Below are positions 47,297 through 48,541 of a stretch of 64,000 nt of DNA, piece after piece. Location: contig JAIMBJ010000001.1 in the NCBI GenBank assembly GCA_023511455.1, positions 189,146 to 253,145 of the forward strand, read 5' to 3'. The notes beneath the pieces are model-generated. The model was given only the letters and a program-made list of their open reading frames with translations, had not been told where the DNA came from and searched no databases. The translations under genes and the position numbers were made by a program. Position 1 is the stretch's first letter. The number at the start of each line of letters is the position of its first letter. The stretch comes from Bacillota bacterium (lineage in GTDB: Bacteria; Armatimonadota; HRBIN16).

Positions 47297-47328
47297 AAAA
47301 GCCTCTCATCCCTCAAGGGACGAGAGGC
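47297..47328 (-). terminator. T-box terminator hairpin
   Basis: Plus-strand stem GCCTCTCATCCC (47301-47312) with GGGACGAGAGGC (47317-47328) and a 4-nt loop; on the minus strand it is followed by TTTTGT. It stops the leader transcript before ilvB unless the antiterminator forms, when uncharged tRNA binds. Confidence 0.9.
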
Positions 47329-47611
47329 TTTATGACCTCACGCGGTACCACCCTTGTTGCTCGCGCCGGAGGGCGGGTACAGTAAACCGTTAACGGCTGC
47401 GCGAGCCACTCTTGCGCGATATCGGGCGCACCCGGAGAGACTTACTTGCAAGATGCCTCCTCTTTCAGCCTCTCTGCTCCGAGGCGAGTTTCGGCAGGGG
47501 CGTCTACTGCCTCGCACCCACCGGCAGCTCTCTGTAAGTCCGCCGTCTGCCTACTACTCCTCTTCATCGCGTTCCCGATATGAACTTGTCGATAGGATTG
47601 CTCTGATTGGT
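47297..47611 (-). promoter_or_regulatory. T-box leader (riboswitch), leucine-type, of the ilvB operon
   Basis: The T-box consensus GGGTGGTACCGCG is read on the minus strand at 47353-47341, just before a terminator. Stem I has the usual pieces: GAAGAGGAGTAG near the 5' end, AGAGAGCTGCCGG and GGTGCGAGGCAG in the distal loops. The specifier loop reads GAAACTCGCC on the minus strand, with CTC (47488-47486) as specifier, a leucine codon, followed by G. TGGT in the T-box pairs with NCCA when the discriminator base is A, as in tRNA-Leu. When uncharged tRNA-Leu accumulates, ilvB-ilvN-ilvC-leuA should be expressed. The leader is about 353 nt. Confidence 0.88.
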
Positions 47612-47845: not shown

Positions 47846-48418
47846 CTAGCTGGTGCGACGCCGCCGCACCGAGTAACCCAACAGCCCTGCGATACCTGTG
47901 CCCAGAGCCAGCAATCCACCCGGCTCGGGTACGGGGACCAGGCTAATCGTGAGCAGATAGTCGATATCCTGCGGATGCGTGCCGTTGAACGGAATGCCGT
48001 CGTCGCCAAGGAACGTGGAACCGACATCGGGATAACCACTGACTGCCACTCGCCAGTTGCCGTTGCTGTTCACCAGGCCCGCAAGCACGTTGGGAGTGTA
48101 CAGGTCATATGCAACCAGGCTCCCTGCGGGGTCGAACAGACCCAGTGCGCTTGCTCCACTGGGCGAATTGGGTAGCGTTACGAGGTTTACAGCCAAAAAG
48201 TCCCCGGTCAGCAAGGGAATCTGGAAGTAGTCCACATCACCTGGCTTCACCTTCCCCAGAATGCTCACCGAGCCAGTGGGATTGAATAGCCCGCGGGCAA
48301 TCAGCTGAGCAGTGCCGAACGCATCATTGGGCTCGACCTCAGGTATGGGGGTTCCTGCGAGCACTGGCACTGTGAGTGCCACGCCTACTGCTATCAGAAC
48401 AGCCTTTATCTTACGCAT
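47846..48418 (-). CDS. PEP-CTERM sorting-signal protein, secreted
   Basis: 190 residues. Signal peptide about 1-21 (VALTVPVLAG). The mature part has EVEPNDAFGTAQLI, the pattern seen at the start of PPC-type beta-sandwich domains, and LKP-type GDVDYFQI. The C-terminus is VPEPGG followed by a hydrophobic helix (LLALGTGIAGLLGYS) and RRRR, the PEP-CTERM tripartite signal. It is thus exported and handled by an exosortase (EpsH type), with likely attachment to the cell surface or exopolysaccharide. The exosortase gene is not in the window. AAAGGAGG before the ATG and a clear sigma-54 promoter upstream. Confidence 0.9.
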   Translation of the reverse strand: MRKIKAVLIAVGVALTVPVLAGTPIPEVEPNDAFGTAQLIARGLFNPTGSVSILGKVKPGDVDYFQIPLLTGDFLAVNLVTLPNSPSGASALGLFDPAGSLVAYDLYTPNVLAGLVNSNGNWRVAVSGYPDVGSTFLGDDGIPFNGTHPQDIDYLLTISLVPVPEPGGLLALGTGIAGLLGYSVRRRRTS

Positions 48419-48457
48419 ACTCCATCCTCCTTTCTAATCATACCCATTCTTACTATA

Positions 48458-48475
48458 GTGCAAGATTCGTGCCAA
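48458..48475 (-). promoter_or_regulatory. Sigma-54 (RpoN) promoter of the PEP-CTERM gene
   Basis: On the minus strand the sequence TTGGCACGAATCTTGCAC (48475-48458) gives the -24 GG and the -12 GC with ten bases between them, matching TGGCACG-N4-TTGC. The start would be near 48448, about 30 nt before the ATG. It needs RpoN and an enhancer-binding activator; neither gene is in the window. Confidence 0.85.
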
Positions 48476-48541
48476 AACAAGGGGTAAGCCCGCCTTTTTT
48501 CGAAAAAGCCGTAAATAATACCTGATTTGTATCTTAATTTG

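Follow-up and report, generated by a model that had tools for sequence, protein, structure and literature searches.

A consensus sigma-54 element before a PEP-CTERM gene of an Armatimonadota genome and its candidate regulon under an activator that lacks an HTH

The locus described here raises the question of whether a sigma-54 element directly upstream of a PEP-CTERM gene is a promoter in a bacterium outside the Proteobacteria and, if so, which activator would serve it. In Proteobacteria, a -24/-12 site and a PrsR box have been described, motif 1 lying at a mean distance of 63 nt from motif 2 (Haft 2006, PMC1569441), and pepA of Aquincola is RpoN-dependent with a mapped start (PMC9850573). The gene studied here lies in a 64-kb stretch of DNA, hereafter the window (C1:189146-253145), of a Chthonomonadia-related genome (G000) of 3.85 Mb and 99% completeness. 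An earlier note on this DNA had placed the host as Armatimonadota-like, and a MAG named Chthonomonadia, a group within the Armatimonadota, is indeed among its close relatives. The features of the locus are:

48492-48510, minus strand: AT-rich semi-palindrome GGCTTTTTCGAAAAAAGGC, about 20-35 nt 5' of the TGG, conserved in orthologues
48459-48474, minus strand: sigma-54 -24/-12 element TGGCACG-AATC-TTGCA, 12/12 consensus, kept in orthologues
48451-48457, minus strand: AT-rich TATAGTA just 3' of the -12 element, a putative melting region read from the sequence
48445-48449, minus strand: predicted transcription start region, about 12-15 nt past the GC, from sigma-54 geometry
48426-48433, minus strand: ribosome-binding site AAAGGAGG, read from the sequence
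47846-48418, minus strand: PEP-CTERM surface protein gene, 190 aa, with a signal peptide, a weak PPC-like middle and C-terminal VPEPGGLLALGTGIAGLLGYSVRRRRTS

The designation of the gene as PEP-CTERM is borne out by TIGR02595, which its product passes with 21.6 bits (cut-off 16); the Pfam score is slightly below its cut-off (PF07589, 20.3 against 20.7). The protein has a C-terminal PEP motif, a transmembrane segment and a basic tail, and exosortase is encoded in the genome. Between this gene and ilvB lies a T-box leader (RF00230, 127 bits; window 47313-47576, minus strand).

The element TGGCACGAATCTTGCA (48474-48459, minus strand) agrees with the sigma-54 consensus TGGCACG-N4-TTGCW at 12 of 12 positions, reading TGGCACG-AATC-TTGC over 48474-48460 with an A next at 48459, and its GG at -24 and GC at -12 are exactly ten bases apart. 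The earlier note had reported TGGCACG-N4-TTGCAC with this spacing at 48475-48458; sequence and spacing are confirmed, and the coordinates were correct to within one base. Apart from this element, the window holds no zero-mismatch match to TGGCAC-N5-TTGC; from base composition 0.15 such matches would be expected, and 0.009 for TGGCACG-N4-TTGCA. Of the 55 genes called in the window, the PEP-CTERM gene alone has a 12/12 site in the 250 nt before it. The distance from the TGG to the ATG at 48418 is 56 nt, and a +1 predicted twelve bases past the GC, at about 48448, would leave a leader of about 30 nt. On the minus strand the promoter is ordered ...GGCTTTTTCGAAAAAAGGCGGGCTTACCCCTTGTTT-TGGCACGAATCTTGCA-CTATAGTAAGAATGGGTATGATTAGAAAGGAGGATGGAGT-ATG. 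In our reading, to which we assign a probability of roughly 0.85, this element is the RpoN promoter of the PEP-CTERM gene and part of a cell-exterior regulon under one HTH-less activator that acts from solution.

The genome was scanned by pattern searches and fetched stretches; our simple ORF caller can take a site for coding when it is overlapped by a short spurious ORF, and such sites were read by eye. The pattern TGGYACGNNNNTTGC was found 22 times and its reversed control 8 times (Poisson P about 3e-5). For the longer core GGYACGAWTCTTGC the count is 14 (expected 0.11), for the most part in front of PEP-CTERM or PDAST-CTERM genes, dockerin protein genes, an exosortase operon and three candidate small RNAs. 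TGGYACG sites stand just 5' of TIGR02595 genes in 4 of 22 cases (expected 0.02), so that the enrichment upstream of PEP-CTERM genes that the earlier note had proposed to test is present. The genes after the non-coding sites are:

Window, C4:202492, C22:31667 and C9:89438: PEP-CTERM genes
C4:140887: PEP-CTERM gene with a broken reading frame
C40:11775: PEP-CTERM gene, site 291 nt before the start
C2:174722: PEP-CTERM gene, site farther off
C22:22330, 23549 and 52657: PDAST-CTERM variant genes
C5:68642 and C26:29465: two dockerin protein genes
C22:44798: pilin-like DUF1559 protein gene
C6:67847: exosortase-EpsI-Wzz/tyrosine-kinase operon, site 124 nt before the start
C62:2412: Tat metallophosphoesterase gene
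C3:220235: cold-shock gene
C5:170416: REC-PilZ gene beside the activator gene

Of the 25 TIGR02595 genes, 4-5 have a site matching at least 10 of 12 positions no more than 250 nt from the called start, a few more have one farther off, and about 18 have no close site; most PEP-CTERM genes here therefore use something else. In the gene after C4:140887 (L082) the PEP-CTERM frame breaks after about 37 codons, reflecting either a pseudogene or an assembly error. At L087, L088, L276, L292 and L296, and at L333 and L338, the C-terminal tail has PDAST or TPEL where PEP would stand, ahead of a transmembrane segment and a basic end; under the same promoters, these tails are likely to be variant sorting signals that most PEP-CTERM models miss. 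A consensus sigma-54 site precedes a cold-shock protein gene both here (L089, at C3:220235) and in a genome of another family (G029, L331).

Conservation was followed in relatives of the genus, which are MAGs such as HRbin16 and the Chthonomonadia MAG, with our genome included in all counts. The site of the window gene is kept as TGG(C/T)ACGAATCTTGC in 7/7 orthologues, at -55 to -57; a site is likewise kept in 9/9 loci before the type-1 exosortase (-119 to -133) and in 9/9 loci in the interval separating the activator gene from REC-PilZ. The type-2 exosortase provides an internal control, with a site before it in 0/9 loci. Over the ten genus genomes together, TGGYACGNNNNTTGC was found 253 times against 72 for the reversed control. 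In the relative G005, sites precede PEP/PDAST-CTERM genes, exosortase, a Wza-type export gene, a pilin-like gene and REC-PilZ. Divergent sites vary in the spacer with GG and GC unchanged; throughout the set of sites, GG, the fifth-position A and TTGC never vary.

These comparisons bear on the possibility that a housekeeping sigma factor uses an overlapping TTGTTT-N17-TATAGT and that the -24/-12 match is incidental. TATAGT is indeed present at 48457-48452 with TTGTTT 17 nt upstream, and a TATA-type sequence follows the -12 element at most sites of the genome and in the orthologues of the window gene. The -35-like hexamer, however, is lost in the orthologue L181 and at paralogous sites, where GG, the fifth-position A and TTGC do not change; the TATA position drifts by 1-3 nt between sites; and neither the 14-fold repeated core nor the exosortase site would be explained. 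We therefore consider this explanation very unlikely.

A sigma-54 promoter needs its sigma factor and an activator, since the closed complex of RpoN-polymerase at -24/-12 opens only when ATP is hydrolysed by an AAA+ activator. The earlier note had made the promoter depend on the presence of rpoN; one copy was found, and its product scores 294 bits against TIGR02395 (cut-off 277) and carries all three domains (AID, core-binding and DNA-binding) together with an RpoN-box-like TRRTISKYR. Of the exosortases that were also to be sought, two are present. Six proteins match PF00158, but only one of them is a genuine activator of the enhancer-binding kind:

C5:170465-171685 (L084:10465-11685), minus strand: sole enhancer-binding protein gene of the genome, PF00158 match

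This protein consists of a receiver, an AAA+ and a lid domain (PF00072, PF00158, lid); a search for an HTH in it gave none, and the chain stops 42 residues after its WPGN motif begins. Its GAFTGA-type loop reads NAFTGA, and N at the first position is listed among experimentally validated activators (Francke 2011, PMC3162934). A receiver and AAA+ domain, an accepted loop variant and no DNA-binding domain are the features of type Ic enhancer-binding proteins, which include FlgR of Helicobacter and CtcC of Chlamydia (Francke 2011, PMC3162934; PMC7482065). Exactly one enhancer-binding protein, never with an HTH, was found in 9 of the 10 genus genomes, the tenth being incomplete. Upstream of the activator gene lies a kinase gene (GAF-GAF-PAS-HisKA-HATPase), and downstream the REC-PilZ gene, which is preceded by the same sigma-54 site.

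The earlier note had proposed the PrsK/PrsR wiring of Proteobacteria, in which a response regulator would bind an enhancer site. An adjoining two-component pair and an AT-rich palindrome upstream of the promoters would be in keeping with it, and PrsR is the third-best NCBIfam model of the activator. Both curated cut-offs are missed, however: the sole enhancer-binding protein scores 424.4 bits against TIGR02915 (cut-off 502.6) and has no Fis-type HTH, and the kinase adjoining it, the only one scored, reaches 99.1 bits against TIGR02916 (cut-off 300) and has a GAF/PAS architecture. Moreover, about 25 nt separate the upstream element from the TGG, whereas motif 1 of Haft averages 63 nt from motif 2. 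The missing DNA-binding domain largely refutes classical PrsK/PrsR control, to which we give hardly any credence, and in this respect the wiring suggested earlier is not borne out.

We return to the RpoN promoter served by an activator in solution. RpoN-polymerase would bind the -24/-12 element of the PEP-CTERM gene at 47846-48418 and wait there closed. A GAF/PAS histidine kinase would sense a signal and phosphorylate the REC-AAA+ activator, gene order being the evidence for this pairing as well as for any role of REC-PilZ in the system. The activator would then open all promoters of the regulon, about 20 in number, belonging to PEP-CTERM, PDAST-CTERM and dockerin-bearing secreted proteins, the exosortase-EpsI-Wzz operon, the pilin-like and REC-PilZ genes and probably three small RNAs. 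Since the sole activator has no DNA-binding domain, we infer that it acts from solution, as FlgR and CtcC do, a mode of action in keeping with promoters close to the consensus and with one global regulon. The choice of promoters would rest on the near-perfect -24/-12 sequence and perhaps also on the upstream AT-rich element.

The RpoN/PrsK-PrsR systems of Proteobacteria (PMC1569441; Aquincola pepA, PMC9850573; Desulfovibrio DVUA0057, PMC3333781) resemble the present one in having a -24/-12 promoter directly 5' of single PEP-CTERM genes, a link to exosortase and exopolysaccharide and a two-component REC-AAA+ activator. Here, unlike in those systems, the activator lacks an HTH and the PrsR and PrsK cut-offs are missed, the exosortase operon itself bears a site, the site is shared by REC-PilZ, dockerin and pilin-like genes and candidate small RNAs, and the host belongs to the Armatimonadota. 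With FlgR and CtcC the system has in common a single HTH-less REC-AAA+ activator per genome, near-consensus promoters and a regulon of surface functions, but it differs in its NAFTGA loop, in the position of the activator beside a REC-PilZ gene with its own target site, in the AT-rich upstream element and in a regulon of PEP-CTERM, exosortase and EPS genes instead of flagella or infectious-form membrane proteins. The regulon fits the general theme that sigma-54 governs the exterior of bacteria (Francke 2011); that survey (PMC3162934) makes no mention of exosortase, EpsH or PEP-CTERM, a 2025 survey (PMC12316311) makes none of Armatimonadota, and our literature search found no paper describing a sigma-54/PEP-CTERM link in this phylum. 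Genomes with a single rpoN, a single activator and some 20 nearly identical promoters form a compact natural system in which to study how promoters are selected when the activator has no DNA-binding domain, and also which signal makes cells build a sorted surface coat.

Most sites in G000 and G005 carry, at -50 to -25 from the TGG, an AT-rich and partly palindromic block, typically AAAAATTTTcgAAAATTTTT. Its AT content is 0.62-0.71 compared with 0.45-0.53 farther upstream, and its best palindrome has 5.25 and 5.70 of 8 pairs in G000 and G005, respectively, compared with 4.63 and 4.78 in shuffles (largest 5.15 and 5.17). Similar blocks were seen in G029. AATC and ATTC are the usual spacers, and many leaders begin with GG(A/T)GGA. 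Spacer and block are unusually conserved for sigma-54 promoters, and our model leaves both unaccounted for. The block is unlikely to be the enhancer of the activator because the latter has no HTH; as a guess, it might be an UP-like element or an intrinsic bend.

Three sites with no ORF lead into conserved, structured sequence closing in terminator-like hairpins:

L091:4905-5114 (C5, site 181125), minus strand: candidate small RNA
L086:7637-7780 (C29, site 35611), plus strand: candidate small RNA
L133:7115-7230 (C11, site 82090), plus strand: candidate small RNA

Their fold z values are -4.9, -3.4 and -2.1, the sequences are conserved in G005, and an Rfam search at the sites matched no known family; these loci probably encode sigma-54-dependent small RNAs. 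That the repeated 45-60 bp block is instead a dispersed repeat or mobile element with a promoter-like sequence, as long flanking blocks shared by some G005 sites (CCCGTTTG...GGGTGGAAAGC) and sites with no gene nearby might suggest, is scarcely probable, given that at orthologous places the core is kept and the adjoining sequence lost, that most non-coding sites point to a gene start 35-130 nt away and that the ORF-less sites lead into the structured sequences above.

Sites in G042, G029 and further genomes of other families were fetched by pattern alone, blind to the gene behind them. Of the genes directly after a non-coding site, 7 of 23 matched TIGR02595 and 8 of 23 the PEP-CTERM model NF038129, whereas of 36 further genes in these stretches no more than 1-2 matched a PEP-CTERM model (Fisher P = 0.004 for 7/23 against 1/36); others of the 23 have variant tails by reading or are exopolysaccharide genes, for example for a polyprenyl glycosylphosphotransferase and a Wzz-type autokinase. 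PEP-CTERM-type genes follow sites in families f24, f13, f12, f22 and, with a TPEL-type tail, f7. The link is thus wider than the cis-site described by Haft 2006 in Proteobacteria only, as the earlier note had anticipated, and by its sequence signature it reaches well outside that phylum with different control parts. It is thereby carried into a distant, hardly cultured hot-spring phylum and appears able to run with a different activator. A site common to exosortases across the phylum was also considered and rejected, no convincing one being seen at 28 exosortase loci in 18 genomes of other families. In 51 other genomes of the phylum pooled, the pattern occurs 303 times against 235 for the control; because this excess is small, strong enrichment appears confined to some families.

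HTH-less activators were found in f1, f5, f7, f12, f17 and f22, and longer ones with an HTH-like end in f2, f3, f8, f18, f21, f27 and f4. We put forward tentatively, at rather less than even odds, that in much of the Armatimonadota a surface programme of PEP-CTERM, exosortase and exopolysaccharide genes, along with small RNAs, is under the command of a single activator that has no HTH and needs no enhancer, the AT-rich semi-palindrome (an UP-like or bending element) replacing the enhancer in a composite sigma-54 promoter. Two genomes of f5, G013 and G051, show a strong excess of the pattern, 22 against 7 and 26 against 5, respectively, and their activators are HTH-less.
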